Source: Cymodocea nodosa (taxonomy: Eukaryota; Streptophyta; Magnoliopsida; Alismatales; Cymodoceaceae). From it: 64,000 nucleotides of DNA. The notes below the pieces were generated by a model. That model searched no databases. It was not told where the DNA came from and worked only from the letters and a program-made list of their open reading frames with translations. The stretch is taken from NCBI GenBank assembly GCA_036874045.1, contig CM072344.1:13984501-14048500 (forward strand), in the 5' to 3' direction. The translations under genes were made by a program, and so were the position numbers. Positions 27,401 through 63,400 of this stretch are shown here, in pieces (position 1 is the stretch's first letter; every line of letters begins with the position of its first letter).

Positions 27401-30400
27401 AACTTCCTCACTAGAAGGTGCTGAGCTGAATTAGAAAGCTTAGGGAGGAAATCTGGGCCCCAGAGAGGTCTGCAACCACATTGATGTTTTAACCTGGTTT
27501 TGAAGAAATTCCCAAGCATATACAGCATGCTTGCACCCTGAGCATGCTCCACTGCCACCCTCATCTGTACATAATTATTCCTTCTCCTAGCATTTTCACA
27601 CTTACGGAAAAATGTTGTATTATTGTTTCCTTCCTTCACGCATATTTGTATTAATTTTGTTGCCATGTTGTCTCCCCTGCAAGACCCAGTGCATTTGAAA
27701 GCTTTGTTGACCTTCAGTTGATTCCTTTAAAAGCCTCGTTTAAGCCATCATTCAGAGGACCATACACCACATTGTAGAGCCATTTCTATCCTGACAATTC
27801 ATTTGGAGCACATTTGAACATGAAAAAGTCCTTCATAATGCTGCTGAAAAAGTCTTTCTCATCATATTTCAACTTCATCATTATTCCTTCTCATCATATT
27901 CAACTTCATCATTGATAATTACCTACATGCACCCTATAATTCTTCCAACCTTTGAACAAAGGCCTTTTTGTGCCCTCAAAAAGCTATTTTGATCAATTGT
28001 GCCCTTTCATTAACTTCCCACCGCTACCAACCTAGGAAAGGAGCTCCCTCATTTCAGAAATTGTTAGAAGGGAAATAGAGGCCAACCTCCTCTCCCTTAT
28101 TGTTAGAAATATGTAGACTCCCCAATGAACACATCCCCCACAGCATCAATTTCAACTTCCATTGATTGTTTAAGTTGATCTTCCATCACATTGACAATCT
28201 TTGTAGCCCTCTAGCTCCATTAAGTTTATAAGCAATCTTCAGAGAAGGCAATTGCCTTAACCTTAGTTTGTTCCTCTGCCTCAAGTGAACACAAATTGTG
28301 CCCCTTGTAGATCAGCTTCATAAAGGTTGAAGAAGATTAACCCAAGGCTTGGGCTTGCAATCCAAATGGGGTTGACACTTAGGAATTACTAAAAGAGAGA
28401 AGCACCTTTTGTGCCCAAGTTTGGCCCACACACACGGGCCAATTCCAGCTTTGCAAGTTGTGTATTGGGCTTACTCTTAAGAGCCTCTAGAGTGGAAAAG
28501 GATCAAGTGAGTATGACTTTTGCAAACCATCAACCACAACATCCTCAATCTAGGACTAGATTGAGGCTGCTTGTCCTCATTAAAATCACCATCTACACTA
28601 TTTTGAATAGAGTTCAAAACACCTTCTATGGACCAAGTAGGAGGCACCTTGTGAGATTCATTGGTAGAAGAGACCCCCTTTAATCTTTCACCATTGATTC
28701 CGACTTCATTTTCTCCAACAATAGCTAAACAAATCTCCACCTCTAATGAAACATTGCCCACCCCCAAACCACCATCTGCTTGCAAAAACTACAACCTCCT
28801 TCCCTATATCTCTTGAAGGCCCATCTCTCTTTGCTTTTGAATAGACAGTGCTGGTCCCCTTCATCTCCCTTGAGTGTGATGACCATCACTAAGAAGTCAA
28901 TGAACAACCTTCACCTAACCAAACTTCACTTGAACCCTATCTTGGTAATGGATGCCAATCCAGAAGTTCTCCCTATCCATTAACTTCTTTCTTTGCAAGA
29001 TAGGCAGAATTGCCCCTGAGGGCTTGTTTATGCATCTGGAATTTGAATTCCGTAAAATTTGAATTCTAACAGAATTTGAATTCTACAGAATTTGACAGAA
29101 ATAATTCAAAATCTGGGCGTTTGTGCACATTCAGGAATTTGACGGATATTGAAATTTAGGTGTTTGTACACATGACAAAATTAAAAGGAATTGAATAGAA
29201 TTGATTTTTAATAAAATTAAGTAATGAATTAAAGTAATTAGTGAAAATGTAATTAAATTATTAATGAATTATTTACATTAATAAATGAACATATTATTAA
29301 AATAAATGTTTATATATCATTTATCAATTAATTAAATGTATCATTATATAAAATAAATCAAAAATTACAGAAATTGATAACTTATACGTTATATTACATA
29401 TTTAAAACAACAAAAGGATAATTATAAATTCTATATTACTCGTAATGATCAAAAAAAGGTATATTACAAAAAATTTACTCATTATGATGTTTGTAATATT
29501 TTCATTCACGACCATCCCACATTACATACATAATATTTTCACAAAATTTATCTGCAATTTCTTTTCTTTGCTCTTACGTGTTGTTTCCAATAGTGTTAAG
29601 TATTTCATATTGTCTTTATATATTTGTAGAGTCTTCAACTTGTATATCACGTTCATCTTCTTGTACTTCATTTTCAAGATCTTGACATAAGTTTGTTTTA
29701 TCTGCTTTACGAATGAAGTTGTGAACTAAAAAACATGCCAACACTATTTTTGCTTGAGTTGTAAAATGAAATGATATATATCCTCGTAATATTGTAAAAC
29801 GATGTTTAACTACTCCAAATGTACGTTCAATTACTGTCCTCAACTGTGAATGTCTATAGTTGAAGTTTTTCACTACATTTGTCAGTTGTCGATTTTCTTC
29901 ATATTCTGATAAGTGATATCGAACACCTCAAAATGGACATATAAACTCAGGTTTATTTGGAAATCCAGCATCAACTAAGTAAAATTTACTTACATGTATT
30001 TGAATATCATTTAAAATAAATTCAATTTTGATTGATAAGTGACATAAAGTTAGATCATAAGTTGTATACCTCGTGACACTTGCAAACCATTGCATTGAGT
30101 TGTCGCATCTTGAAGGAGTCGAGCATCAGCAGTTGAACCTTCCCACCCATTAAGAACATAGGTAAATTCCATATCAAAATTGCATGCAGCCAATACGTTT
30201 TGTGACAATTCACCTTTTCTATTCCTAAATCGGGCATTCTCTTTTTCATAAATTGTGGCTTTAATGTGTGCACCATTAATAGCACCTATACAATCCTACT
30301 CATACCAAAAACAAATTTAATTAATATATAAATGAATAACATGAAATATCAAAATAGAAATAAAGATTGAAGTGTGTACCTTGAAATATGGATAAACATT

Positions 30401-33400
30401 TACATCATTCTGAATTTGATTGTGTGTAGCAATTTCATGTTTAGTTAGAAGTATATCACCTATTTTTAATATAGCATTTATTATTTCATTGAAATATGTA
30501 CTGATAGTCCATGTTGATTGATGAAAATGCTCTCTAGTTACTTCGTACCTTTGATTTTGTTCAACTGTCACTAAAAAAATAGCAAGTTTATCCTCTACAC
30601 TCATATTTCTACTATCTGATATTACTTTCATATTTCTTAATAATCTACAAAATTGTGAAAAAATATATTGACTCATTCAATAAATTTTCTTGCAGTTGTA
30701 TGCTTGATATGGTGATGATGAATTTAACAATCTTTGTACATATTCTGCTCTTTCCGTACTGTATATACGAGTGGTGGTTGTTTGAATCCCATTTATAGTA
30801 ATTCCGCTTAGAAATTGCCATGTTCCCAATATAACTTTTCTTTTTTTCTTCCTTCGTTCTTCGTCTTCATTAATAATGGACATAGACGTCTTAATAAATT
30901 CCAGTCCCTGCATCTGTACCTATCATACCAATTATGATTTAATAAAAAAAACATAATAATAGCATACAATCCAAAACCATGCATACATCAACAAAATGTT
31001 TACACCATGTTACATAAGGATAACACAAGTTCAATAAATTCAAACATGTTCAATAAAATTTAAATTTTTAAATGAAAAAAGCACATCATTTCAAATTAAA
31101 CTTCAACCATGAAGTTCTCATATTCGGTGGTAGACGCCTAAATTGATTCTTCTTTGATTCTATCTCTAATAATTGCATTGCCTTGTATTTTTCTTCTTCT
31201 ATAAGATTTGTAAGTGAAAGTAAAATAGTGAGAACATCATCTTCTTCACGATCTTTTTTCTCTAACAATTCCATCTTCCTCTTTATGTATGTTAATTTTC
31301 TTTCTTCATTACGTTGTGTAAATGCCATCTTTTCCTTTTGGATCGATATCATGTTCTCTTGTAGTTGTATGACACGCTCTGTGTATGCCATTTTCCTCGA
31401 ATTTTCTTCCATATCCTCACTAAAATAATTCATAAGTGATACACCAAGATTGTTCATTGTAGTTGTCATAAGTTGCTGTGATTCAACATGTGGACGTGGA
31501 CGTTTTCCTTTCCTGCATGAGTCTACATCATTCAAACTAGGAGAAGGAGCTTGAGTAGGAAAAGGATCTTGCGTTTCAGCCTCAAATTTCATAGTATTTT
31601 GTGTAGGAGGTACATTATCAAGGTCATTTGTATCTTCATTCAAGTTCACAGCTGCTCTCAGATTTGTTATACTCATTTTAGTTGAGACTGTTGCAAGATT
31701 TCCTTCAAATATTATTTGAAGTTGGTCATATATAGGACATGCTTTACCCTTGTACTGTGTACACTCTAGATGAACCTATTAGGAAAAAATATATTAGTAC
31801 AAATTATAAATTAATCAAATGTTAAATTTAAATTTGTAAAAATTCAACTAACTATAACAAATTCATCCCAAACTTCTTTTGCGATATCAGTATGTGCATG
31901 AATGTAGTTCCATCTCCAACCATTTTGTGCACCAATCTTGGTATAAATTTTGTACATTTGTCGCTATATTTTCATTCGACTATCAATATTTTTCTTTTGG
32001 ATGTTACCTCCTGTTTCTTTATTGTAATCATCAATTACCTTCAGCCAAGTATCAACTCGTATCTTTCCATCAGGAGTTTTACCATTACCCTCCTTAATAG
32101 CATCGCACACCCTTCTTAATATCTTTTCATCCACTTGAACACTCCAACTAAAATAAGATCTTCCACATCTTTTCTTATTTTCCATTTCCTATGAATACAT
32201 ATATAAACATAATATAAAATGCACCATAACATAACATAGAGATGGACATTTCCATAAACATTAGATTCACAATATACACCTATCTACAAATGAATATACT
32301 TTAGCAAGATAAATATCTAGGTATTGTAAATGGTAGTGATTAATGTAGGTTGTGTAAATTTATATATTTGTGCATGGAAAATACTTTTGCACCATCAACA
32401 GTATTACAAATTATTTTGCATTAATGCAATTTCAGCCATAAGAAAGTAACATTCGAATGTGAAAATATATTTTGCACCATCAATAGTATTACAGTAATAC
32501 TCTGTGAAGAAAGTAGCATTGGAATGTATACCTTTCACTAGTGAAGTTACTGTTGAAGATGGTGCAGGCGAGTACGAGGCCGAACATGTAGGTGTTGGGG
32601 CCGAGCATGGGTGCCGACGAGCGTGAGGGGGAATGAACTGCGATGCGGGCGAGAGCAACGGTGTAGGCGAGGCATGGGTGAGGGCAATGGTGCAGGTGAG
32701 TGTCAGGGTCGAGCGTGAGGGGGCGACTGTCGGAAAATGAATTCCGACCTTTTAGGTTGGGAATTTCCCAAGCTTTACACATGGTTGGAGGAATTTGAAT
32801 TCCAAACGGCACAAACACCTTATCACTTGGAATCTGACGGAAAATTTTTTTAATTCCATCAGATTCCGAGTGCACAAACCCCCTCTAAGAGTTTGACCTG
32901 AACTAGCACAACATTACTCCAAACCAAATGTAGGCCTCCTACTTCCATCAATCTTCTAAATGAACCCACCAACTTCATTCCACTTGTCAGGCAGGATGCC
33001 CAACAAATGCATCCACACGTTTGGCCATGGCATTGCAAGCTTGGTGGCCAACTTGCTTTGCTGCTCATAGAAAACTAGTTTCTGGTATCCCTCCCTCGTA
33101 ACCTCTTCTTTCAGGAGTTGCTCCCTCCACGGTGCATTAAGGGAGGCCACCAAGAAGTCAAAACTGTAGGGCTGACAAACCCACCAACTAACTTTAGTGC
33201 CCCATTTCTTCTGAATATGGCCCATAACTATATTTTTGTTACCACTGTCAAGCATACTACTGATACAGCATGCCATTAATTGCTCCCCATAAACTGTAAT
33301 TTCTTGACACCATGTTTCTTCCACAAGGATGGAGTCCAATTCTCTGTTGTCCATGTCAGACCCCAACCCTCCCTGCCATTGGTAATCATCCACAAGTCTT

Positions 33401-42400: not shown

Positions 42401-45400
42401 ATCTGGGATGCACTGTTGATAATCCTTTGGATTTTTATCAAAATCTGTTGTGTCAGTGGTGTTTGAGACAGATTTTCATCAGAATTTGAACAGTGTAGAA
42501 TTGGAGGGTCGATATTAAGGGTCTTAAATTTAACATGGGAGGCTAGACCTCATCTATTATTACCTCTCGCTCTCTCTCTCTTTCTCTCATTGTATGTGTA
42601 TGTGGTGATGTGTGTGCTTGAGTGTCCAGGTGCAGGCCAGTGGGGGTGTATAAGTGTGGGAAAAAATTATAAGGGTCTCACCTAGGCACCCAAGGCTGGT
42701 ATCCTAGGGTTTCTTGATAACCTTGTTTTGATCAATTTCTGTGCACCTCCGTGCTTTATCTGATTATCTCCTATACTTTCAACCAGTCTAGCATGATTCA
42801 TGTTTTCTTGGACTGTAGTAAAGCCCCTAATTGAAATTTAATTTTATGCCTGTTAGTGTTCCAAAAAGAGAAAATGTCCATTTAATGGATTCAATGCATC
42901 CATTTTGTTGAAATTTCCTGTTTTTGGAAATTGGTGCTTGTGAATTACGGTTGCAAATTTTAATTCTTACAACTTAAACATCAATTATTGATGCACAATC
43001 ATGCCATTAAGTCAATTTCCTGGTTATGAGTGATCATTCAACTTAAACCTAGCATGTTGGGGACACAATCTTTTTTTACTTCCAGCCCAGGGAATTTTAG
43101 AAACTCTATTTCTCCATCAATTATTTCAAAAAATTACTGATCTCGTTAATACTTTTCATACTCAACATTGAATTATTTTTCATGTAATTAGTATAGTTGA
43201 TCTTTAGTTAGATTTTTGGTAGCTGAGACTTTTGTGAAAAGATCTGGATGCATAAGCAGCTTTGTTGTCATCATGTTTTGTGGTTATGAATGATCACTTT
43301 GGTAATTAATCTGCTATGTTTATTATTAAATGTTGAAGCATGGCTAATATGTGATCCTGGCCTGGAACCCATGCTTACTTGATGCAATAGCTCAGATATG
43401 GATGAAAACCTTTCGCCAATGTTAGACAAGCCCAAACTCCTTCCCACACCTGAAACCAACAATTCTACATGGTTTGTTTTGTACTGTTGTAAGGAGGGAT
43501 CCATAATCAATGACTATAAAAGTTGGTGATATATTATATGATCATACTGAAACATTTTGTGCATTTTAATTAGCTGTATTTATGAGTCCTTGGCTTATCG
43601 TGGAGATTAAGGCACGTTGTTTGTTACTGTTGCTATAGGAAGATGGTCAAACTCTTGTGAATGGTCTTTTAGAGAGATTAATAAAGTGCGACAAATATGG
43701 TGAACGTTGTGGAGCAGCATTTGGACTTGCTGGTGTGGTAAAAGGTTTTGGAATTACATCAATAAAAAAATATAGGATTGTGACAATTCTTCGTGAAGGT
43801 TTGGAAGACAGGTATGCTATGTAATTGTCTTAATATAATTGTATTATTATCTCTGTAATTTAAGAAATTTCTTGTTCCTCATCATTTTAATTTTCACCTT
43901 TAATTCTGTTAGCTTGAAATTTTTTGTTGCAACTGATATGTTGCATATTTTTATAAAATATAGTATTGACCTAATTTTTCTTTAATATAATGGTGGATTA
44001 CTATTCTTTTTATTGATTAGTCAAATTTTTGTCAGAGTAGCATTCCAGGTATAGTTGTATGAATACTTCTTTCAACATACTCCTCTGTTGGGGATCTGCC
44101 AACCTGTTCATTTATTTCGTATGTACAACAGTTGCCATGCTTCACATGTTCAAATCAATATATTACTTTGCTTGAATGAAATTAATGCGTAATTTAGGGA
44201 GCACCATTTCAAATCTGCAAATGTTTCTTCTTTCATGATGTGGATTGTATACTGTTCTTTTTATTTTTGTTCATTATGGATTCATCAAGAACAAAAAAGT
44301 TATTTGTTTCACTAGGAGAAGCCATTTCCATTTTGTTCGACAGCAGTTTCTTACCTTGTTTTTTTGGAGGAGGTGGTGGTTTGGCTATTGTTATGATGTT
44401 CAGTAAATGATAATTTATCAAGATCTAGATGCAAAGATGTTATTTGTTTCACTAGTAGAAAGCCATTTCCATTTTGTTTGAAAGTTGTTTCTTATCCTTT
44501 TTTCGGTGGGGGGTTGCCAATTGATAGCATATTTAGTAGATCTATATTTTCTTGATTAAGTCACACATTTTTAATTTGAAAACCTCTGCAGGAATTCTGC
44601 TAAATCTCGTGAAGGAGCTTTACTTGGATTTGAACGCCTCTGTGAAAAACTTGGCAAAGTATTTGAGCCGTATGTTATTTGCTGTTTTCTTCCTATTAAT
44701 CCTCTTCATTATTTTTTCATTTTTCTTAGAATATTTTTTTTCTGTTTCACAGGTATGTTATCCAGTTTTTACCTTTTCTTCTGATTTCCTTCTCTGACCC
44801 TGTTTCTGCTGTTCGTGAAGCTGCTGAATGTGCAGCTCGTGCAATGATGTCACAACTTACTGGTTATGGAGTGAAACTTATTCTTCCTTCACTTTTGAAG
44901 GTTTGTTAATTCTGCTATCTCTTTACTCCTGGAGCTGGTTGCCAGCTGGCATTCATCTTTATTTTGGATCTCTCCTTTTATCTATTACATATTCACAGTA
45001 GTAAGATTTTGATGAGTTGTTTTTTCTCATTCTAATTCATCGCAAATAAGCTAAACTAAATTTAATATTGCCTTCAATTTGTGTGTTACATGGTGTTGCT
45101 CATCATGGTCTTTTTGTTTGGTTGCGTTGTTTGAGTTCTCAAATTTTCATTGTGGACATTGATATAAACATTGTAAGACTAAGAGAATTCTTGATAAAAC
45201 TTATTAATTCCCTTCTTTCGAAGGGTAATTATTTTACTCAACTGTTTGTGTGACCTAAATTTAGTAACATTGCAATGATGGGCATTAATCTGAACTTAAA
45301 TTACCAATGTCACTTTCCCAACACTTAGTCGTTAAATATTTGCAAACTGCCTCTATTTTTTTTTTTCATGTGGATGTTCTCGACAAGCTAGCCATTAAAG

Positions 45401-48400
45401 CTTGGTGCTGTAAATGCATCACAGGCATGGATGTACGTCATGCTCTGTGTAATCAAGCTGAAGAAGATAGAGATCACATATTCTTTGCCTGTTGTGTAGT
45501 ACAACATGCGTGGAGTATGATGATGCCTCAAGTGGTCTTCGATGGTCTCTCCTACCACTCTTTTGACAGTCTGTTTGACACAATCCATAGTATTATCAAG
45601 GGACAGATGAATGAGGCTAAGCATGGGCTGCTTCTATCAATTCATGCTACCTGTTGCTGTGTTTGGCTGCATAGAAACAATATTATCTTCAAGGGAGAGT
45701 TGTGTAACAGGGAGAAACTGTCTCTTGTAACTTTCAAAACTTTCATTAAATGGGTTCAGATTTTGTTTTGATTGTGTTTTCTTTCTTGGAGTCCCTATGT
45801 TGTGAGGTAAAGATGATCCTTTTTAACCCCTTGGAAATAGAAAAATATTTGGTGTTTAAGTAATATTCTGCTTATTCTTTTTCAAACAAATAAAAAACAG
45901 TTAGGTTTTTGGGGCAAAGATCTGGAACACTGAGATTAAAAATGATAGACAAAAATTCAACGTTTTTGAAAGAGTGTGAAATGAGTGAAAGAATCTTAGT
46001 CACATTTGATGAAGTCATGAAAAGAGCAGAAATACAGGATAGATTTGAGTTATTCTTTAAGGCCCATTTATGGTTGGGAAATTTGAAAGAGAAGGATCCA
46101 TACCTTGATTAGGAGTAAAAGTACAATATATATGAGGATAATGGACTCCTAGATAAACAAATATATATTAAGCCAAATACATAACATAAACGCATTCATA
46201 CAATCATATTATATTAAACATTCACACTTCCCCTCAAGTTAAAGTATATATATATCTATCATGCTCAACTTATTATATAAGTATTCAAAGACACTAGCTC
46301 CTAACTCCTTGTGAAGATATCCAGAAGTTGCTTTTAAGACTGAGCATGGGGAGTGGAGATTAAACCTTTCATTACCATATACCAATTGTAGTGATAATGT
46401 ACTACAATATACCTTGTGTGTTATTGGAAGTTTAAACTATTAACTATGAAATTGTAGTCTAATTGTTATAATGCATGTACATGAGGCTGTGAGGTGTGAA
46501 CCCTAGTTTTTTAGGTAATGGCTTGAGCTATTGATCTATACTCAATTTTGACAATAGATCTAGAGACTACACTCTACTTATTTTGTTTGGTAACTAAGTT
46601 ACCAACAATATATATGCAAAAACTTGAGATAAATTTTCTATCATTTGCATAGCATGTGTCTAGAATATGCTTCAATCTTTAAATACCCATTCCTTGGTAT
46701 ATGATCCCCTTTCCTTGTACATTCTCACAAAATGCACCTACCTAATGAATTTTTCTAGGTTCATACATGAATTGAGTGAGTAGGCTAATGACAAATGCAA
46801 TATTTGGTCTAGTAATAGCGTAATAAATCAATTTGCCAAACAACCTTCTATATTGTCCTAGACTTTGCATCACTTCAATTGAATTATCTTGAGAAGGAGG
46901 ATTTGGTTCTATAGACATGCTCAAGTTTACAACTTAAACATCCTGTCTCATGTAATTAATCCAAAACATATTTCCTTTAATTTATAGTTATTTTCCCTTG
47001 GGCATATGGAAACCCTATTTGCAGAAAATACTTGGGTTTGCTCATATCTTTAGTAGAAAATAAACTTTTCAAGATAAGCCTTCAATTATAGGCATTTACA
47101 ATTAACAATGAACTTTACAATTTGGGTTTGCCTCTACATCACTACTTGTCGATAGGTTGTCATTAACATAAATAACTAGTATTAAGCATCTTGTAGTTGC
47201 TTTTCTATAAAATATTGAATGATCCATTGCACATTGTTTGAAATCGCCATCAATCAATGGTGCTAAATTTTTCAAACCATGTGTGTGAACTTTGCTTAAG
47301 ATCATTAATTATCTTCTTAAATTTGCATTTTAAATTCTCCTCCTAAGTAACATACTTTAAAGATTGTTCTATGAAAACTTGTTCAATTAAATCTCCATAC
47401 AAAAAACATTTTTTACATCAAGTTGATGTAGCTTCTCTTATTGATTGATGACTAGAGACAAGAGAATTATAATTGAGTTAAGATGTGTAGCTAGAAAAAA
47501 AAAATCTCAGCATACTCAACTTAATAGGTCCAAGTGAAGTCATGAGAAATCAATCATGCTTTTTGTGTTCACTGAACCATCTGGCTTGTACTTGTTGATA
47601 TAAACCTACCTATAAGTAACTATACCATCCCCAACATGATAGGACACCAAATCCCATTTGACAAATGAACCAAAAGCTTCTACTTCCTCATTTGTTATAG
47701 CTTTCCAATGCAATAGTTGTAGTGCTTTTTGTTGGCTTGTGGGAATAGACTTAGTAGAAATAGATCAGGTGAAACTATAATAGATTGGGCAAATGTGATT
47801 ATAAAGTTCAAGGTTGTTTACTTTTCTTGAAGACAATAGGAATGTTAAGATCTAAACTAGTCGTATAGGTGTTGTCAAAGTTGCAGGCATATTTAAGGAT
47901 GGCTGGGTTGAGGGAAGTGGCAAGTGATGTCATTGATATACCTACATTGGATGAGATGTCTAGTTACTTTCCATCCTTGAGCCATCATCAATGGATACAT
48001 AAGCATTGGTAAAGGAGCATTGAGAGGATGATCCTTAACACCAAAATAAGGATGAAATTCAAAAAAACATCAATAGAGACATAATATTTTTTTGTTGGAG
48101 GTTTAAAATTGTTTTATTCCTCTTGTGTATGTGAATATCCAACAAAGATGTATTTTAAAGTTGTAGGAACCAACTTGTCCAAATCTAATGACATATTTTA
48201 AGCAAAAGTAATACACTCAAAGACCTTTGGAGGAATTGTAAACAACTAAAGTTCAAGTTCAAGGCAATGAGGAGGAATTTCATCACCAAGGGGTGTTGAA
48301 GGTAGATGATTAATCATATAGGAAATTGTAAGAGTTGTGTAAGACCAAAGGTATTTATGCATTTTCATTTGCAATAATTGTGTACTAGCAACATGAAGAA

Positions 48401-51400
48401 GGTGGCATTGTTTCTTTTTGGCAAACTCATTTGATTGAGTGGTACGAGGACTTGTAGTTTGATGAAATTGTATTTTAAAAAGGTTGAAATTGTTTCTATA
48501 TTTTCAATCACACCAAGAGAAGCACAAAAGGTTTCAAATTTGTATTTTAAAAATTCAAGAGCATTGTCAATTTACAACCATTTGAGTGTAATGAGAAGTT
48601 GCTTTAGCAATATGAAACTTGTAATGGTGGCTATAGGTGCAAACAAGGTGGTGTTGGATGATTGCTAAAGGCTAGGGTTCTCTAGGACATTGTCGGCACA
48701 CCTCCTCAATGGGGGTCCTTCCCTTGAAACTTCATAGCTTTCTCTAGGTATCTTGATGGAGTCGACTAATGACCTTATTGAACCCCCTCAGCTCCCCAAT
48801 ACACTTCCTCAACTCATTGACATCTCTTGAATAGAAGGAGACAAACAATCATCGTACGTCCTTTGTAGCTACTTTAAAGGATATTCTTGTAACACCAAAC
48901 TTTGTAGACATTCTAGTGTACATGTTAGTACTCAAAGATAAGGAACAAAGTCCTCTCTTCTCTAAAAGAGGTTTCGCAGCCAACCAACATGTTTTGATGG
49001 ACATTAGTTCGTCAATTTAGTACACAATGACCTTGAATGTTTGACATCTATGTAGAGATGAAGAATGCCCTCCCCTTCAAAGAGGATTTCTTCCCAGTAA
49101 TTATAGATTTACATTACATCCTTATTTGTTTCAAGTGTAGGGAAGATTTCATCAAAGCCTATTTGAAAGATTATTGAGTAATCAAACGGAAATAGATGCC
49201 CATCTCTCGTTGGTCCTCATCCTTTTCACTTGGCTTAGAATCTCTTTGGGTCCCTATATGGATTTACTTATCAAAACTTCGAGTGCACATCTAAGCTTTA
49301 GTTGTCAAGTCAATTGCAAGCATGCTAGGGTGCTTCTTGTATTTGTGTCAGGATGTCTAGTGCTTCACTTGGCTAGGATTGATGATAGTTTGTATGGAAA
49401 TTATCTTGTTCAAACCATTACCAAGAACTATAAAGAAATGGCCATGAATTGATCCTCCAACCTATTGAATATGGTTCAAGGGAACTTAAGTTCTTCTCCA
49501 ATTGTTTCAAGCTTGGACACCTATCAAAGAATTGTTGTAAAGTCCAAAAACATAATCCCTCCAATGTCCAATTAGTAGACAAATTTCAAAGTGATAAACC
49601 TAGAGATAATGTTGAATAAATGCAGGATAATCTCCCCAAATAGAATCCAAACCAAGTAGTAATTGAAAATGAATGGACTTAAGTCTGTAGAAGAAAGAAG
49701 AAATCTAGAAAAGATTGCCAAACTCCAGTAGACCTAGGGTAGTTCTCTTAAGCAAAGGAGGCTTCCCAATAGGTTGGCATGGTGAAGGAGGAGATTCACA
49801 AAGACACTGCATGTAGGAAATTATGATTTGTTAGAAACTAAAAATTTGAAGGGCCCCTAATGTATCCAATGAATACCTAGACCTTCCAAACCTCTCTTAA
49901 AGTTACTTAGGCAAATATGAATGACGACAATTTTAAGGGGTTGGCAATGCAGAATGAGTGGTAGTTGATGTAGTTAATGCTATTGGGTCTGTCAATTACC
50001 TTGACCACATCAAACTTAACATTGAGGAGATTGGCCTAGACCTAGATGATGACATTTGGCTGCATATCTACAAAACTTATTCCCAAAGCAGGTCTCATCC
50101 CTAGAGGAGACAAACTATCTCCTTAAACATGGAACAAGAAAGGAAAGGTACTCCCTGAAAGGTAGCTACACACTAACATTCCTTGTTATCCATGAAGACA
50201 ATTATTTGGAATTGTAGGTGTGTTGGAAATAGGGCCTTGTTTGGATCTCCAACACGACACTAGAAAATTTGAATTAGTTACCCAGCAACGAGCCAGAAAA
50301 ACTAGAATTTGTTAACTTCTGTTTTTACTTAGTTAATTTATCTTTATGTCTATATTACTGAATTTCTTTTTAGAAGTAAACAAACAACCTTTCACAAAAA
50401 TTAGATATTAATTCCAATTTGTGTTTTAACTGCAAGTGCTCAGTGTCTATTGTATTAGTGTGCAAGTACAGGTCGATCTCACAAGGAATTGCTTAATAAT
50501 TGTTAACTGTTCCGTTTTTAACAATCAAATTTATATATTCAATAAGCTCTCCGTTTAGTTACAGTTAACTCAATAGACAAAGTTTGTTGAGTTATAACTA
50601 ACTCAACGGACTAACCTCGTAGACTTAAGTTAACTTCACGAGACTGCCTTTCCTATTTAATACTGCTATTTACAGAGGAATTCGGTCAACCATTGAGCGG
50701 TTCCATAGATTGTAAATAACATCAATTAAGCTCTTTAATATTAGTAAACACTGAATTTATCATTAGGCAATACTAACATTCAAATAATTCAAACAATAAC
50801 CATTAAAATCTTTAAGTCTTTTGAACGAACTAATTTTAATAAACTGTAAAACTAAAACAAACATAAAACAATCACAACACTGACAAAGATAACATTAATC
50901 ACGATACAAAACAAATAATACAACACTCAAATACAAAATATAAACACAAATAAGTTGTTTTTGGTATTTTTGTTTTGATATGAGCATGAAAATGGGCGAA
51001 AGGTGAAATGTAAAGTAATCTTAGTCGACAGTAAATACTTCTGTCACTACATGCGACGTGATTACACCACTTACAATTCTGTCTCCTCTTTCTATAGAAT
51101 CACGAGTCCAGAATTGCAAAATGATCTCCTCTTCAGCATACAGACATCAATCTGAAGCCAAGGCTAGAAACTTTACAATCTCCTGATATATGAGTCGACG
51201 TTTGGTGAAAATGGCTTCCCTTCCCGCGACGTGATCACTCCTCATAGTGGTTGTCAGGCACTATGTTTGACTCGGAATTGACCTAACATCAAGAAAGTAT
51301 CCTCATAGACCTCCGATGGTTGGTGATTATGGTGATGTTGATGATGGTTGGTGTGGTACTTCAGAGAATTGCCGACGTTGCCTGTAGAAAGTTAGGTGAT

Positions 51401-54400
51401 CCTTCTCTGCACACACTGGCCACACCCATCGGTCACACACACACCTTGCTGCTTTTTTTCTTCTTTTCTTTTATATTTTTCAGTGGTAACTACTTCTACT
51501 TGAATGATCGATTGGATTTTCTTCATTCATATCAACGACGATGATTTCTTCTTCCTTCGACGAGTGAATTCTTACATGATACATGCGATCGTAGTTTTTC
51601 CTTCTAACTGTCCTGTTTCTGCAATTGCTACAGTGGCATATTAGAAAATAAATGGTCTGTGGAGTTACAGATAACTCAACAGACTTGCTTCGTTGGTTTA
51701 ACTATAAAACACGTGCATAAATTTAACTATCCGATGCTTAGGTACATTTCGGATACTTACATACTTAACTATCCGATGTTCAGATGCATTTCGGATAGTT
51801 ATAGATAACTCACCGATATATAACTTAAGTCAATCTTCCAGATCACGACACGTGTTATCAGTAGTTTTATAATAAAAGAAACATTTCGGAGAGTTACTGG
51901 TCTAACTATCCGATGCCTAAATGCATTTCGGATAGTTAGAGATAACTCACCGAAATTCCACTTAAGTCATTCTTCCAGAATATAACACATGTCTACAGCT
52001 ATTTTATAAATAAAAGGAGATTTTGGAGAGTTACACATATAACTATCTAATGTCTAACTGCAATTTCGGATAGTTAAAGATAACTTACCGAAAGTTCACT
52101 TAAGTCATGCATTATGATTTCGACACGTGTACTTCAGGAAATAATAAAATATTCTTTTAAAACATAACTGTTCGGTAATTTAAACATAACTGTCCGATAC
52201 ATGCTCAGTACGTTAAACATAACCGTCCAAAATAACGGAAAATTCGGATACTTAAGAATTTCATAGCCTGCAATTTACCGACAATCCAGAAATGTACTAA
52301 ATTAACATTAATTCCCCGTAATTAAGCAGATTCTTTCATTAAAGCATATAACAGTGCAATTATAACATAATGGCTTAATTCTCATATGATAAGCTAAATA
52401 TTATGCAATTAACCATCATTTAACCATTAATATTATGCACTTTTTCATTCTAATAGGCCTCTTAATCATTTCTTAAAGAAGAAATTCAATAGAATAAAAT
52501 CCAATTAGCCACTATCTTGGAACTTTTCATTGCTTTGAAAGAGGTCAAGATATTGCAATCTTTATCTAGCAACCTAATTGGTATCCCAATGTAGTGTTGG
52601 GCAAAATTTGGCTTTTTTGGTCTAATAGAATTGGCATAACTCTTGTCAATGAAATAAACTAGACAATGACCTTTTGGATCACTCTTTTAGATGGAAACAG
52701 ATTCCTTTTCTCTATTGTTTACATTGCTTGCCAAGTTAACACCAGACACCTCTTATGGGAGGAGCTCCATCACATTAATGAAAGATTTCCTAATGTGGTG
52801 ACTTCACTGTTGTTTGAAATAATGGAGAGGTGATTCCTAATGGCTCCTTAAATCTATTTGGATTAAGGGACTTCAATGACATGATTTATGACATTGGTCC
52901 TGAGGAGTGTCTTTTTTTTAAGGAACCCCCTCTCTTGGTTCAATAATCATAAAGGGTGAAATAGACAATATAGAAGGCTAAATAGAGTTTTGATAAACAA
53001 TATGGGCAATGACCACTAGAGTCTACTAATGGAATACAAGCCCCAAATCTACTTTGACTATTCACCTATGATGCTTACTCTCACTATTGATACATGGTCT
53101 AGCATTGCTCCCTTCCTCTTCCAACAGATGTGGGCTCTCCATTAAGACTTTCAAAGGATAGTTTCTTGCACTTGGCATAGTGTGATAGAGCAATGTCTCA
53201 TAACTCTATTAACTAAGAAACTCTTCACCCTTAAAAACCATCTCAAAAGATATAACAACTTGGTTTTTGGCAACATTGATCAAGACAAAGAGTGGTTAAT
53301 GCATGAGATTGCCCAAATGGAAGCTCGCGTGCAATTAGAGTGGGACAATGATGATTACTCTCGATTAGACATGGTGAAAACAACCTTAGATAAATGTAAC
53401 CAACAAAAGGAAGTCTTTCTTGCATAGAAGGCCTACATCAAATGGCTATCCAAGGGGAACAAAAATTCAACCTACTTTCACAAGATTATTAACTGAAGGA
53501 GAAATGCTAACTAGTATAGAGCCTTAATGACTTGCAATAACTTCACTTCAATGGAAGAAGTACAGACAACTGATACAATTCTCTTTAAGAAGCTTCTTTT
53601 GTTGGAAAGCTCTTAATGTGTAGACAATTTACTTGAGAATGTTCTGAGGTGACCGTTGAAAAAGACAATGAGTCATTGTCTTCAATTCACAATAGCAAGA
53701 AAGTGAAAAAGGCCATGTTTTTCATTGACAAGGACCATGCTTTTGAACCAAATAGCGTCACAACTGATTTCTTGAAATCCTATAGGGATATTATAGCAAA
53801 TGATTTGATTCCAGTGGTGCAGCACTTCTTTTAGGGAGGTAGATTAGACAATTCCTGGAAAGTCACCTTGCTCTCATTGATTCCTAAAGGTGACAATCAA
53901 ATAGGTTTTAAAGATTTCCACCTGATAAGCCTTTGCAATGTCAAGTATAAGGTTATAGCCAAGATGCTCTCAAAGAGCTTGCCAAATGCATACAAACAAG
54001 GTTCCTTTGTAGATGATAGAAATATCATTGACAATATATCCATTGCCCAAGAGATGACTCAAAATATAGAGAATGGTTTTAGGGGTGAAAACATCATCCT
54101 CAACTTAGATATGAAGAAGGCCTTTGACAAATTGAAATGGTCTATCATTTGGTAGGTTCTAAAGAAGTTTGGATTCTCTGCAAAGAACATTGATTTACTC
54201 AAGGAATGTGTTGAGTATAATTGCTTCTGTATGGTGATCAATGGTAGGTCTTCTAATTTTTTTAATGCTTTGAGAGGCTTTCGCCAGGGAGATCCCCTTT
54301 CACCATATCTTTCCATTATTGCAAAGAAGTGCTTTGCAAGAGCTTACAACACTTGGTGTCCACTAATAACATCACCCCTTATCCTACAAGAAATAGAAAC

Positions 54401-57400
54401 AACATTATATCTCATCTTCTTTATGCAGATGACATTATCTTATTTATCAACGACACAAAAAATGATATTAAAAAAGATTTACAACTCCAGCAAGGGTTTT
54501 TTTATGGTCTCAAAAAGCCTTTTTGTGCAAAGAACAAATAGGATTCAAGAACTCACTGGTTTCCAGAGAGGGGAGTGCCTCTTTCAATATCTAGGTTGCC
54601 CTCTCTTCAAAGGTTAATCCAAAAGCATTTACTTTGAAGGCTTTATGCAAAAAGTGCAAGACAGGTTGGCAAGCTAGAAAAGTAAAATTCTCTTTCCTGG
54701 GGTTGGAATTACCTTTCTGAAGTATGTTCTCTCTAATTTACTTATCCACCTGATTAGTGCTTTTGATGTACTGACGGAATTTGTTGACAAAGTACAATCC
54801 TTGTTCACTAAATTATTATGAAGAGAAGGCAAACTTCATTAGCCCAGATGGAGCAATATGACCAAGCTTGTCGAAGAAAGCAGATCAGGAATTAGAGATC
54901 TCAAGGAACTCATGACAGCTTTGAGAATGAAGATGACATAGAGACTATTAAAGAGAAAGACCTTGTGGTTTAAATTCATCTTATCCAAATGTGGTCTTCC
55001 CTTCAACAAATAGAGCAAATGTGAACTAGTAAATGGAAATCCCTACATGCAATGTGGAGTTGGATAGCTCGATCTACCAGATGGATGGGTGGAAAAGGTA
55101 ACATCAATTTTTGGGAAGATCATTAGCTTTCTTCTGGAATCATTTCAGAATTTTCAGCTCCACTTGCAGGCTTCAAAGATCTCACCATGGCTTAGGTTGC
55201 ATCTAACCCCAGGGTGCTTGACAACTTTAGCCTTTCAAATCATATCATTCATGAAGTCCACACCAATTTTAGATGCCTCAATGAGTCTAAAGTTGAGTTC
55301 AACTGGAGTGGGTCACCAACGAGTGACCTCATTGTCAAATCAACCTGAGAAGTAGTCCAGAAAGAAGGTAGACAAGATTGATGGAATGGAAGTGTTTGGA
55401 ATAAATTTCTACCAACTAAAGTCTCTTTCTTCCTTTGGAGATTATCCTACTCCATCCTCCTGACAGAGACCAATGCCTAGAGGAGAAGTTTTACTTGGCA
55501 TCTTGATACAAATGCTGCACCTATCTTCAACGGGAGGACTCTAGACACCATTTATGTTTTGAGGGAGACTGGATCATTCTATGCAAGTTCTGGATTAATC
55601 AAAAATTGGGCTACAATTTGCCAAAATTAGACAAATTAGAAACTCTTTGTTCAAAAGACATTGTTTCAGAAAGCAAATCCCTCTCGTGCAATGCTAAAAA
55701 ACTTTTAGTGGCCAACATCTTATGGGAGTGTTGGAAAAAATGATGTTCTATGATGTATGAAAACAAAAAAGGATCCATCACCAATATCAAAGTCAGAGTG
55801 GAAGCTACGTTGGACTCCTTTGCTAGAGCCTTCATCAAGATGAGATGCAGTTCAAATGAGATCCCACTTCTTAGGAGGCTTGGTTTTAGGCTCTTGGAAG
55901 TTGGGAAAAACCCTCATAGTCGAGAATCAAGCTTGACATGGATGGCACAATTAGCATGGAAGGCAATGCAACTAGTGGTGGGGTTATCTAGAATGCAAAT
56001 GATGTCATCATAGCTACTTTTTTAGAGCTATATGGCCAATCCAATGTGTTTATGGTTGAATTTTAGGCCATGCAGAGCAACCTCTCTATATGCAAAGACT
56101 TAAGCTTAAATTTACAGAACCTCGAGATTGAGACTGACTCTTTACTCTCATAGACTGCTTTCAACAAAGTTAGAGATTCTTTGGACAAGCCCAGCCCTGG
56201 TGGCCCTTCTTTATGCATTTTATCTATCACACTCCTTGAGACATATCCCTCGTGAGGCCATTTGGATGGTGGATCTTCTAGCAAATAGAGGACTCAATGG
56301 TATTCAAAAGGAACTATTCCATCACTTCAGGGAGCTCCTAAAAGAGGCTCGATAACAATGGCAGTTGGACATGCTAGGTATTCCCAGCATGAGGAATCAT
56401 TAGTCTTTGGCCTCTTGTCTATTTTCACTACTCAATGCAAAGCTTTCTCAAGGGCCCCTTGATTAGACTAAGGTTTATTTAAAAAAAAGAAACGTATAAC
56501 AAAAAGTTGAGTTTTTATTTTAGCAAATTTTGTTTAACTACATCTAGAATAGTTTGATGATCTTTTAACAAATAATTCCAAGACACTTAGAATAAACATT
56601 TACAAATGTTATATAATATTGATAACTAGGGACAAATGAAATATGACTAGGAATTTAGATATCATAATGATTTAGATTAAAAAAACCTTTACTAGACGCA
56701 AATTGAAGTTTGTGGAAGGTGATATGATGATACTTCCTCAATCAACACAACTCACACTTAGGCAAAGATATAGAGATGATGGTTTCCCAAATGACACAAC
56801 TCACGATCAAATGGATATAGAGATCTAAGGAAGGATTTGCTGTAACTTTCAATGTGATGGATATGCAAAACAATAATGCCACAAAAGTGATGACTCAGTA
56901 ACAATTAGTAATACAACCAATCCACTCAATAGATCATGATGAACATACTTGCGAATAAAATCACCTCATCTACAACCCAAACCAATCTTCATCCTTGTTT
57001 GCAAATCTTGAAATGTAAAATGAAAAAGAAAAAAGGTGAGCAGGAGGGTTAAATAGTTATAGCACTAATGGGTAATAAATTTGTACAAAAGTCAAGTACA
57101 TAAAGGACTTATTCAAGTCTGATCTTTAAGGAGACTTGAGTGTGCCTTCTCTAGACACAGGCCATGACAAGCCATAAACTCTTTTGACAAGTAATATTAA
57201 GACGATTGTGTAAGCAGGTCAAGTGTACTTGACATATAAGAGAAGACACTTAAGTCTATAATCTAAAAATCATCACTTTTAGCTACCATAGCTTGATCTA
57301 TATCTGAAGTAAAAGCAATTGCAGTAGTAGTAGAGGGTTCAGTGGCTAGCAAATAGCCTAGATGATAGTAACCATCATGGAGTCATCAAGTCTGACAATA

Positions 57401-60400
57401 GTAGTAGTAGTAGTTGTAGTTGGAATAATTGAAGCATCATGGCCACATGTGTCCAAGCTAGCTATCCAAACTTGTCCCAATATCTTTTGTTCAACCACAT
57501 TGTTGGTAGGCTCGACAACCCCTGCTGTTCTACACCTTCACAGTTAGTAGTATTGCTAGGAGATTTCACCCAACCTTGATTAGTTGCCATGGCTGAAGTC
57601 TTGCTATTGGGATTGTGTTTGGCAACATGTAACATGCACAAATATTGTGAACATGTTTGGACGAGTGTCACTACCTAGAATTTGGCCACAAACTTATAAG
57701 GCAAGCTTTAGAGTCAAATTAGACAAATAGATGGCAACAACAAGATCCTCTTAATGCCAGCACAGTAGCGCCTCATCACCACATCTGATGTAATAGGCTG
57801 ATACACGTCCAACTCCTTAAATAGTGGTCTGATGGTAGCAAAATGCACTTGAGCAAATTATCTCCCATACGTAGAGAGAATCTGGTGATAAATCTCATAT
57901 ACCCTGACTATGTTTTTGTCATGGTTATACATCTATTGTAATATGTCCCAAATTTTCTTTGCTGGTCTCAACTCATCAGCTTGTGTGCAACATGTGGTTC
58001 CATACTATTCTCCAACTAAGTGACAACAATAGAGTCATTAGTATACCAATCATCATACTTGAGGTGATTGTGTGAGATGCTTCAGCTTCCTTTGGGTGGT
58101 AATAAACATTTAAAAGCTTTGTGGCCAAAGTAAAAAAATTCATCCCATTTAGGTGGGGTTTATGCATCTAGAATTGAAGAAAAATAAATTTGAATTCCAT
58201 CCAATTTCAAATACAAGGGTGTTTGTGCACCTGGAATTACAATTCTGGGAAGAAATGAAATTCTGTGTTATAGAAATCAAAGACGATTTTCATTTCTCAC
58301 CCCTATAGGTCAGCATTTCAATTTCAAACCCTTCGACCTCAAGCTATACAAGACATTCCAACACCGTGCACCTCAAGTTCATTCTGACCTTACATTCCTC
58401 AAGTGGTTGCACATCATGCATGAGGTCTATTATCATGCTGCCTCATCATCTCAAGCTATGGGAAGAAATTTGCGATAGAAGATAGTATGGAGATATAAAA
58501 TATGATATGTTTGAGTTTATTTCCTAGGTAGGGACAAATGTATGTTTTCATTGTTGATTTTGTTTTGTATTTAGAACTTTATATATAGGTAATTAACAGA
58601 ATTGTGTCCCACTTGTTTTCCTAATGAGGTCATTAATCTTAAGCTACATTCACTCTAGTAATTAACAACTTCTCCAACTGTCAGGTTTTAATTACATTAT
58701 TTCAAGCACTGCAATTTAAGTTTTTTTTGGATGAACGATCTTGAGTTTTCTTGACAAAATTTAGTTCATTGTTTTTATTAATGGTTCTATATGTAAAAAA
58801 CTTGACTGTTATGAGTTTTTCATTAAGTTGGATGTTATTAAGTAGGGAATTATATAATTATATTTGAACTTTGTTCAAGTTTATGTGTTTTTCCTTTCAA
58901 ATTATGTACTTTTCCTTTGAAATTTGCTAATTACTTACATTATTACTAACTAGTTGAATTAATTAATTAATTAATGACAACTGTATTACATTATTGACAC
59001 ACACAAACATAAATTTTCAATTTTATCATTTTTTTACATGTACACAAATACTTAAATTTTAAATTCTATTCAATTCCTAAACATGCCCAAACATCTAAAT
59101 TTCAAATTCTATTTTCATTCAATTTTGTTCAATTTCATTTCCAACCAGAATTTCATTTTCATCAAATTCAATTCCCGGTGCATAAACAAACCCTTAGTTT
59201 CTCAAAGGCACTAGTAAGGTTTTAGATGACAGAATCTCTAGCACCTATAATGAAAGGGCAAATAATGCTGCCATCACTAGTCTTGTAGTGGTAAACAAGG
59301 AGAACATTAACGGTTGTGGTCTTAACTTGTTTGAACTTGTCTGAATGCATTTAAATTGGTTCTAGTACTGGTCTGACAGTAGTAAAAGCAAGGTCAAACA
59401 AAGTTTCAGAATCCGCCTGACATGGTAAGCAGGGCAGGAGGTGGTCAAACACAGCAACAGCAGCAGGCAGAACTGTTCAAACTGCTCAGAACAAGGACTT
59501 GTCAAAACTCATCTTGTGGACATAATGACCAAATGACACTGGTAGATCCAAGCAAAAGCTCAGTAACAGTAGTAGTAGCAAGGGGGCCCCAGTTGGAGCA
59601 GCAATGACTCAATCGCTGTAAGGGTTGAGCAAAGAAACACAATGGAAGAAGACCACCGTTAGGGAATTTGGTGATAACAGTAGGGGAGGAATAGCATCAA
59701 AGGCGGCTGTAAAGGATCAACTGACTCCAGAGTAGCTAGTAGTGCAGTCCTGTGGCCTGTTACATGGTTGTCGGTGGTCAATTAGTGTGTTAGAAGTGCC
59801 AGCAGCCTGTAGGGTCTGTCAATGATGAGGCTGGAAGAAACTGATGGTGCTAAAGAAATTCGATAGAGATTTTGGTGGTGCCAAAAAAGAGGGAGGAGCT
59901 AGTGGTTGGTGGTGGTCAACTAGGGCAAGGGCTTCAACCTAAACTTTGGTACCATGTGAAGCTTGAGTGAGAAATGGATTCATTCCTTGATTAGAAGTGA
60001 AAGCACAATATATATGGGGATAATGGACTCCTGGATAAATGAATATCCATTAACCCCAATACATAACACTAATACACTAATACAACCCTATTGTATTAAA
60101 AATTCACAACAGTCATACAATGATGGCACCAAGGTGGTTACTTTGATTGCCTTGGGTGCCTACCTAGGTGGTTCAAAACAAGATATGATAAGCATATCAA
60201 AACACCTAGATAATTATCACACAAAATGTGAATTAGACAGAGATAAAGTGGTTGCATGCATTGGAAAAATCATGTAGAATGACAGAAAATGGCCTCTACT
60301 ATTGAATGATTTAAAATATAATCAAATCATACCAAGATCAATTTCAAGTTGAATGCCTTGGAGGGTTATAACCTTGTCCTCGTCACACTAGATAATCTCA

Positions 60401-63400
60401 GAACATTTGGTTGCACATCATTTGTTTTCTCCACACCATAGAATGGGTCCATAACATCTTAAGTGGCATAACCTATATGATACTCTGTAACTCATTGGTA
60501 ATATTCTAACTCAAGTATATGCACAAAATATCCTATCCATAAGAAATGATGAACTATCAATACGTTAGATTCCTCTAGGTAGGGAGGCTTTCATGGAGTC
60601 ATGTCATTGTAGTCATCCTTTTGTATTAGTTGTTCTCTTAAAAGTTGGAAAAGGTCAGATGCTCCATAATTAGATCCTACACGTCTTTAATCATGTTGAC
60701 TTGAAGCATGGTAGCTTGGCTCAAGTGCAGTAATCAAATAGCCCATGCAATTCTTCATAGAAACTATATGTGTAAGAATATTGACTCTAAGGCTGAGGTT
60801 AAGGTTCAGAATCATTCATTTGCAAACCTTTAAAGATTTGTGGAAAAAATAAATTGGATTCTCCTTCTGTTGCCTCTTACCATGTATCATCACTAATTCC
60901 TTGCTTTTTCTTTGTGTAATGATGTTACAATGATTCATAATCATGTTTGTAAGAGGGTTTAATTTTGTGATCTTTATGTTGAGTGGCATGGGTGAAGAGT
61001 TTCTCTTGTAAATGAAGGCTTTTGATCCTCAAACTAAGGAATATTACTACCACTACCTCTGACTCTTTGATACATAACTGGATTTAATAATAATGTATTG
61101 ATATGGTTTTTCTTGTGATTCAGGGACTGGAGGATAAAGCTTGGCGAACTAAGCAAAGTAGTGTGCAGCTTCTTGGCGCTATGGCTTATTGTGCACCACA
61201 GCAATTGTCCCAGTGTCTTCCCAAGATTGTCCCAAAGCTTACGGAGGTTTATCATGCTGGCTACACTTCCCCTCTCATCTTAGTTTGTGATAGTTCATGC
61301 CTTATGTATTCTCTTTGTTTTTTCGGACATTGGCAGGTATTGACTGATCCACATCCCAAAGTGCAGTCAGCTGGTCAAACAGCCCTTCAGCAGGTAGTGA
61401 TAGATATTTAATCAATTTAAGATGTTATATTCCAGGCTTTTGATATTCATTGTAGCTCGTATCTTTTTCAGGTTGGAAGTGTGATAAAAAATCCTGAAAT
61501 TTCAGCTCTTGTACATACCCTTTTATTGGGGCTTGAAGACCCTAATGCATATACAAAGCATTCCCTTGAAATTCTTCTACAGGTGATAAACTCACCAACT
61601 ATTTGTTTCTTTAATTGTCTGGGACATAATATCATGATTTCTGCTTGACCTGGATTCTGCTTTTGATATAAAATTTAGACTACATTTATCAATTCAATCG
61701 ACGCACCATCATTGGCATTGCTGGTGCCTATCGTTCACAGAGGCTTGAGGGAGAGAAGTTCGGACACCAAGAAAAAAGCAGCTCAGATAGCTGGAAATAT
61801 GTGCTCATTAGTGACAGAACCAAAAGATATGATTCCATATGTTGGGTTGCTTCTCCCTGAAATAAAAAAGGTGGCCATGTTGCTTTGTTATTGCTGGTAA
61901 TGTAATTTCTTATTTGACAATTTTTTCTACAATGGTAATAGGTGCTTGTGGATCCCATACCTGAGGTTCGATCCGTTGCTGCAAGGGCAATTGGATCTCT
62001 TATAAAGGGGATGGGGGAGACTAACTTCCCAGATCTTGTACCATGGTTGTTAGATACACTCAAGTCTGATAATAGCAATGTTGAACGATCTGGAGCAGCA
62101 CAAGGCTTGAGTGAGGTAACAACATTTTCAATTCATAGCTCTCCAATTTTGGTTCTATTATTGGAACAATATCATAGTTGAGTTCTCTGAATCTGTCTTC
62201 CAAATATTTCATCTAAATTTACATCAAGGTGACTGGTTTTCTTTGGAGAAAAACATTATATTTTGGCAGCTCCTTGTACAAGAAAAGCATTATATTTCTT
62301 TGGAGAAAAATATTATATTGTAGGAGGGATCTAAACCATGGTCAAGAAGTAAATCACTACATCAGACATGAAATCTGTTGTTGCAGACCTGTAGATGGCA
62401 CTGGTTCTGTCTGTCTCACCATTGCTGGCAAAAAAGTTCTAAATCTATATATGTATATAAGAATTGATAGATTCTTTCACAATCCTCCATTTTTCAAAGA
62501 TTATAAAACATTAGATACAGGAATCTAGGTTTGGCTAACTGCTGTAAGTAGGGTTGTAAACAGAGCAGATTTGATTTGAATAGACCTATATCTGAATCTG
62601 TATCTGTTTGATAGCTAAATAATCCAAATCGCTTCAATTAATATCCAAATTACTGAATAACAGATTTATCTCAGAAAAATTGAATTCAAATATCCAAATC
62701 TGGAAATCTGAATCCAAAATTCTAATTTTGAATATGGCTATTTCACCTTGATATGATATATTTTCTCTGTAAAAAAATTTAATCCAAATATATGAATCAA
62801 GACACCTGGATGTGAATATCATTATTTTATATCAAAAATATAAATTTATAATGATAAGATAAATTGTTTTTAAATAAAATATTAAATATAAATTTTTCGG
62901 ATATTGGATTAAATGTGTAAATGAATTCTAATTGGATTTTAATCAGTGGATATCTATTGAATTTCGGATTTTTTATATCTATTTAAGCCCCAGTGTAGGA
63001 GATGAGTCTCAATTTTATGCTGTAGGTGGAGCTGCCTATTTCAAAATAATGGTTTGTCATTTCCATGTCCATCAATCGGCAATGGCTTTACTTGTATCAA
63101 AGGCTTGTGCTTGCATTCACCTCCTTTCTTTAACTGAAAAACAGAAAAATGGCCTCAGCCATTTTTTAAATGTTTTTGGCCATCAGCCTTCTTAATTTTT
63201 GACAAATGGTGAAAATCAATCAAGTCAGATTTTTTCATTTCCAATAGTTTAAACGACCCTTTTCTAGTGAAAATGGGGGGGGGGGGGGGGGGGGGGGGGG
63301 GCGAGCATCAACATATCACTTTTTTAGATATAAGAATGGTGATATTAGGGTATTGTCTAGGTGGCATGTAGTCCAAGTCTCAACAACACTGAGCCTATGT

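Follow-up and report, generated by a model that had tools for sequence, protein, structure and literature searches.

The 64-kb window analysed here, i.e., the whole stretch from position 13,984,501 to 14,048,500 of contig CM072344.1 (C16 among our contigs) of the Cymodocea nodosa assembly GCA_036874045.1, contains an intron of the gene GCN1 in which a decayed Copia-type retrotransposon and the elements lying inside it span 14.0 of 16.2 kb. A sequence-only reading had described this intron as a stack of nested insertions, with a long interspersed nuclear element (LINE) and, within it, an unclassified 2.2-kb insert splitting the Copia, and a PIF/Harbinger derivative in the gag part of the Copia. 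Our analysis makes such a history very probable: Copia first, then an L1-type LINE, then a gypsy-type element later reduced to a solo long terminal repeat (LTR), with the PIF/Harbinger element entering the Copia separately. Genome searches covered 374.6 Mb in 28 contigs, relatives were scored for up to the best 40 candidates per query, and all counts of relatives are counts among the matches listed. For the LINE, the 2.2-kb insert and the PIF/Harbinger element alike, the borders were aligned to an uninterrupted copy of the family that each interrupts. The features are as follows (PBS, primer-binding site; PPT, polypurine tract), with their evidence in brackets.

44901-61123, plus strand: GCN1 host intron, GT...AG, phase 0, 16,223 bp (flanking exons join as a single reading frame)
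46076-60108, minus strand: Copia-type LTR retrotransposon remnant, inserts included (LTR pair; PBS and PPT in relatives; weak RVT_2 match; collinear relatives)
46076-46226, minus strand: Copia 3' LTR (LTR pair comparison)
48586-48601: left target-site duplication of the LINE, GTGTAATGAGAAGTTG, 16 bp (sequence and L077 alignment)
48602-56493, plus strand: L1-type LINE with A-rich 3' tail (RVT_1; Copia copies L076 and L077 lacking the insertion)
50233-50237: left 5-bp target-site duplication of the solo LTR, GGCCT (sequence; empty site GGTCT in LINE copy L078)
50238-52455, minus strand: gypsy-type solo LTR of a high-copy family, i.e., the 2.2-kb insert (29 further copies fetched; other copies bordered by PPT or PBS, with open frames past the latter)
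52456-52460: right 5-bp target-site duplication of the solo LTR, GGCCT (sequence; L078 alignment)
56494-56509: right target-site duplication of the LINE, GTATAACAAAAAGTTG, 16 bp (sequence and L077 alignment)
58152-59193: PIF/Harbinger-type non-autonomous element (inverted repeats at its ends; flanking TTA, 58149-58151 and 59194-59196; empty site in Copia copy L079)
59955-60108, minus strand: Copia 5' LTR (LTR pair comparison; PBS-like sequence at inner edge, clearer in copy L008)

The host gene and its intron

Translation of the exons flanking 44901-61123 joins them in phase 0 and in frame. The 91 residues from the joined exons match chain 8i9x_LR (E = 1.2e-37, residues 1-91; a chain of 2,898 residues) and chain 7nrc_A, which is named GCN1 (E = 7.9e-21, residues 1-89), and the best stretches to both are ungapped at the exon junction. 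The listing of 8i9x_LR as ribosomal protein L19 is taken to be a label error. From these exon borders we infer that the intron would be spliced out whole across 44901-61123. No GCN1 paralogue with an empty intron was found, the exon behind the intron having one genome match, a single occurrence, and no known structured RNA reached the gathering score within 44800-61300.

A solo LTR inside the LINE

The innermost insert is bounded by GGCCT on both sides, and in the LINE copy L078 the alignment has a single GGTCT where the window reads GGCCT-LTR-GGCCT. LINE relatives are uninterrupted at this site, as judged by eye, at C2:19621592-19624241, C7:2632359-2635503 and C6:13123175-13126588, where the two LINE sides lie 111, 1,613 and 2,765 bases apart against an insert-free expectation of 93, 1,613 and 2,361, respectively. 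The searches behind these places gave 26 rows for one LINE side and 53 rows (best 40 of 103 candidates) for the other; a pair of sides on C14, 15.8 kb apart, stands outside the three.

The family to which the insert belongs is very abundant (67 rows, best 40 of 13,872 first-look candidates). In the 29 additional copies that were fetched, the longest match begins at 50236-50239 in 23 cases and stops at 52452-52453 in 21; the others are truncated, longer or split. Beyond one end, the PPT complement CTTCCCCCATAC or a close variant continues the repeat at eight loci, and the 1.5 kb preceding the PPT in relatives is poor in coding sequence. Beyond the other end, the PBS-like sequence TGGCGCCGTTGCC follows in L028 and L033, with variants in further copies, and open frames are present in the 1.5 kb beyond the PBS in L022, L028 and L036. 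One of the two L022 frames compared with Pfam matched Asp_protease_2 (E 0.0045, below the cut-off) and the other had no match. We take the PBS to be of the tRNA-Asp type, presumably the usual one in Athila-like elements. Since the window copy is without an internal part, it is a solo LTR; one of its ends is TA in place of the CA of other copies.

Alternatively, the 2.2-kb insert could be a non-autonomous DNA element or a satellite unit, in keeping with the 13,872 first-look candidates and the many copies clustered side by side. Against this stand the 5-bp duplication and LTR-like ends, together with a PPT following one end at eight loci and, in other copies, a PBS and open frames following the opposite end; we consider this reading highly unlikely.

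Repeated CAAACAAGTTTT...TGG motifs, in part PBS-like, occur at the LTR end in L018, L021, L022, L026, L028, L029, L031 and L033, and a PBS-like motif lies inside the solo LTR of the window at 50238-50310; perhaps LTRs of this family have extended over the primer site. The solo LTR also holds 137-bp tandem units with ATTTCGGATAGTTA motifs (51744-52130).

A LINE inside the Copia remnant

Without its insert the LINE measures about 5.7 kb by arithmetic, and it lies in sense orientation to GCN1. Its reverse transcriptase matches RVT_1 above the cut-off (53835-54152, E 9.5e-10), an adjacent frame does so below it (E 0.021), and three further pieces had no Pfam match. The element is classed as L1-type by its RVT_1 match, A-rich tail and long target-site duplication, the L1 clade itself being putative. 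The duplication is imperfect, with 12 of 16 positions equal between the left and right copies.

Copia relatives were searched separately for the left side (46800-48601; 52 rows, best 40 of 372 candidates) and the right side (from 56494; 60 rows, best 40 of 350). When 21 of the 52 left and 21 of the 60 right rows were compared and pairs less than 6 kb apart were kept, a cut that would by itself exclude any LINE-bearing copy, eight other places held both Copia sides collinear, in the same order and strand and without the LINE (C1, C3, C13, C15, two on C16, C18 and C19). Their distances are within about 860 bases of the LINE-free expectation and would be 7.9 kb longer with the LINE. The places on C13 and C15 hold other inserts further on, as seen by eye, and a place on C11 (2402561-2419988), with a 14-kb gap between the Copia sides, is outside the eight. 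At the base level, the Copia copy L077 runs continuously through the LINE duplication into the right side, and L076 agrees with a LINE-free site less exactly.

The Copia remnant

The Copia spans 14.0 kb, or about 5.1 kb by arithmetic without its inserts, and is antisense to GCN1, decayed, with many stops and two interruptions. Its LTRs are homologous (E = 2.0e-32 in the genome-wide search), with 82% identity over 139 nt ungapped and 81.5% identity over 151 aligned sites, at which 18 transitions and 10 transversions give a Kimura two-parameter (K2P) distance of 0.217 ± 0.044. A PPT-like sequence adjoins the left LTR and the PBS-like TGGTACCAAAG adjoins the right one, placing the element on the minus strand; in the relative L008 a similar LTR end runs on into TGGTACCAGAGC. 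We take this PBS to be of the tRNA-Met type. Use of tRNA-Met is given for most copia groups in PMC6317226.

A 68-residue Copia piece (47105-47308, minus strand) matches RVT_2 below the Pfam cut-off (E 0.0097). Eight of nine other pieces compared with Pfam had no match and one had an unrelated weak match; the integrase-like piece also had no Pfam match, and its position and order were read by eye only. The element is assigned to the Copia class because the LTRs, PBS, PPT and weak RVT_2 match occur together. Insertion of the Copia into an older coding element, considered for the frames at 45894-46112 and 60098-60274, was rejected, as neither frame has a Pfam match and the two are discontinuous by arithmetic.

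The PIF/Harbinger element

The fourth element has imperfect inverted repeats and, at 1,042 bp, is about twice as long as several relatives (540-575 bp). Sequences related to its ends are common (57 rows, best 40 of 634 candidates); of 30 loci, one is the window itself, L041, L057 and L066 carry TTA on both sides, and in 26 one or both ends are unclear or different. It is called non-autonomous because its longest frame (58194-58475) gave no transposase match in Pfam. The sequence of Copia copy L079 agrees with the left flank up to TTA and then resembles the right flank, so that an empty site in the Copia is supported, not proven, by sequence comparison, its right side moderately so.

The same window carries a coding relative:

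About 29018-32886, minus strand: coding PIF/Harbinger element (ends similar to those of the 58152-59193 element; DDE_Tnp_4)

Its ends are 65% and 68% similar to those of the intron element. Two pieces match DDE_Tnp_4 above the cut-off (E 1.5e-12 and 5.9e-6); two others give matches below their cut-offs, one to a Myb/SANT-like domain (E 0.0034) and one to At2g29880_C (E 8.1e-5). The presence of DDE_Tnp_4 in a relative with similar ends speaks for the PIF/Harbinger class of the intron element. Local derivation from this coding element is not supported: similarity to it is 65% over 303 bases, against 82% over about 390 and about 340 bases at the two best-scoring places elsewhere.

Order of events and alternatives

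In the proposed history, the phase-0 GCN1 intron would have been a tolerated landing site, entered first by the Copia in antisense orientation. Next, an L1-type LINE would have entered the Copia integrase region by target-primed reverse transcription, in sense orientation to the gene, followed by a gypsy-type LTR retrotransposon entering the LINE near its endonuclease start, which recombination between its two LTRs would have reduced to a solo LTR. Separately, the PIF/Harbinger-type non-autonomous element would have entered a TTA in the gag or leader part of the Copia; its arrival cannot be ordered relative to the LINE or solo LTR. We infer these insertion mechanisms and the former presence of a full-length gypsy-type element here, and the integrase and endonuclease positions were read by eye only.

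Divergence offers an independent check and agrees with the nesting order. Half of the K2P distance gives 0.109 substitutions per site in each lineage since the Copia inserted. The terminal branch of the solo LTR is 0.059 in a tree of 27 copies, an upper bound as the tree took 26 others of a very large family; those 26 have a mean of 0.049 (range 0.031-0.081).

Several points weigh against this history. The RVT_2, zf-RVT and Asp_protease_2 matches all lie under the Pfam cut-offs, the empty sites were seen in family copies rather than in the orthologous intron of related species, and the genome searches report best candidates only (e.g., best 40 of 372 and best 40 of 350). The 5-bp target-site duplication of the Copia is poor, with three of five positions equal (ATGGT and ACAGT), and its outer borders are therefore set by the LTR ends. 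On the PIF/Harbinger side, the L079 match to the flanks is weak, the two scores being reached by 3 of 500 and 7 of 500 shuffles. In 4 of the 60 right-side rows the Copia homology ends at 58151-58152; this is weak evidence, as the query itself stopped at 58160. Finally, 59190-59954 matches only itself in the genome at the DNA level (one match), and therefore the right side of the PIF/Harbinger site rests on the weak L079 alignment and on two short leader matches, in L004 and L007.

The poor Copia duplication and the lack of another DNA relative for 59190-59954 would also suit a reading in which the flanking Copia pieces are different elements joined by rearrangement, without a single stack. Against it stand the eight places with both Copia parts collinear and no LINE between them, and the LTRs at both ends with a PPT-like sequence inside the left and a PBS-like sequence inside the right, as in a single minus-strand element; we regard this reading as exceedingly improbable. 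Nothing was found in favour of a composite formed elsewhere and moved into GCN1 as one block, by duplication or transposition, and hardly any credence can be given to it, as, the window aside, left-side rows reach query position 1798 at most (LINE from 1803 on; best 40 of 372) and right-side rows begin at position 22 at the earliest (LINE up to 24; best 40 of 350). As no scored row crosses the Copia-LINE junction, the nest was most likely built within this intron, judging from these comparisons.

The sequence-only reading thus holds in its main lines. A Copia remnant does lie within the GCN1 intron, as its LTR pair and the in-frame exons indicate, and the proposed in-frame splicing of the intron on paper agrees with exons that join in phase 0 across 44901-61123. 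The split of the Copia by an oppositely oriented LINE is borne out by the duplication and the empty site in L076 and L077, its integrase position being read by eye, and the PIF/Harbinger derivative in the gag part by the TTA and inverted repeats, the right side of its empty site being moderately supported. Family empty sites and divergence uphold the order Copia, LINE, 2.2-kb insert, and the separate order Copia, PIF/Harbinger stands as well. That reading had hung its account on homologous terminal repeats and on flanking Copia pieces from one element: the repeats are homologous (81.5% over 151 sites), and the pieces are of one element type (eight collinear places). The right repeat was placed exactly (59955-60108) and the left starts at 46076, not 46075. 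The 2.2-kb insert does lie inside the LINE (GGCCT; L078 empty site), and its label as unclassified gives way to a gypsy-type solo LTR, which adds an LTR-LTR recombination event. New beyond the first reading are the identity of this insert, two additional repeat fragments within the intron, and the transposase-coding PIF/Harbinger relative at about 29.0-32.9 kb.

That the nest still acts on GCN1, with the antisense Copia LTR, the sense LINE or the solo LTR contributing a splice or poly(A) site or a silencing mark by which GCN1 output is tuned, and is kept by selection instead of being just tolerated, is purely hypothetical and very unlikely.

Other repeats in the intron and window

Two further repeat fragments lie in the intron, one on each side of the Copia:

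45362-45890 (about), plus strand: piece of a truncated LINE, its zf-RVT region, on the left of the Copia (zf-RVT on frame 45289-45768; four weakly similar places)
60175-61061: old unclassified repeat fragment right of the Copia (genome matches; alignment with two copies)

The frame at 45289-45768 matches zf-RVT below the cut-off (E 0.00019). The right-hand repeat has 48 match rows besides itself at 65-84% identity (best 40 of 167 candidates), and two of its copies resemble each other past both ends of the piece in the window. Elsewhere in the window, minus-strand LINE-like frames lie at about 9600-15070, with DUF4283 at 14584-15069 (E 6.5e-12), and two parts of this region (11870-12213 and 13079-13374) resemble the intron LINE. 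At 15418-15659 a 121-bp unit occurs twice in tandem with a 100% match and looks recent amid old repeats.

Comparison with known systems

The PBS of the Copia remnant, if of the tRNA-Met type, is that of Ty1/copia elements. The remnant further shares a PPT, short LTRs and a weak RVT_2 piece with Ty1/copia elements (PMC6317226). Unlike them, it is decayed, with many stops, and interrupted twice. Plant L1 LINEs have RVT_1, an A-rich tail and a long target-site duplication; the intron LINE shares these features and differs in being decayed and interrupted near its endonuclease start. The gypsy-type family presumably belongs to a Ty3/gypsy OTA lineage such as Athila, which it resembles in its long LTR, little coding sequence before the PPT, weak aspartic protease match and a PBS presumably of the tRNA-Asp type. 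Unlike Athila-type elements, the window has a solo LTR only, and the lineage is not proven. The intron PIF/Harbinger element resembles PIF/Harbinger miniature inverted-repeat transposable elements in its TTA duplication, inverted repeats and DDE_Tnp_4 relative in the window, and differs from several of its relatives (540-575 bp) in its 1,042 bp, with no transposase match.

Nested transposons in introns are of a known, ordinary kind, of which this stack is well preserved, and the general view is unchanged. The locus offers a readable record of four element classes at one tolerated site, i.e., a worked case and a source of lineage insertion markers, and if the intron is spliced out whole, GCN1 would be another conserved gene with an intron of about 16 kb that is mostly transposon-derived. 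The nest is like the transposon clusters resolved by tools such as REANNOTATE (PMC2672092), in which interruption gives the order and LTR divergence the age. It differs in being confined to a single intron of a conserved gene and in combining four element classes; the principle by which it is read is the same.

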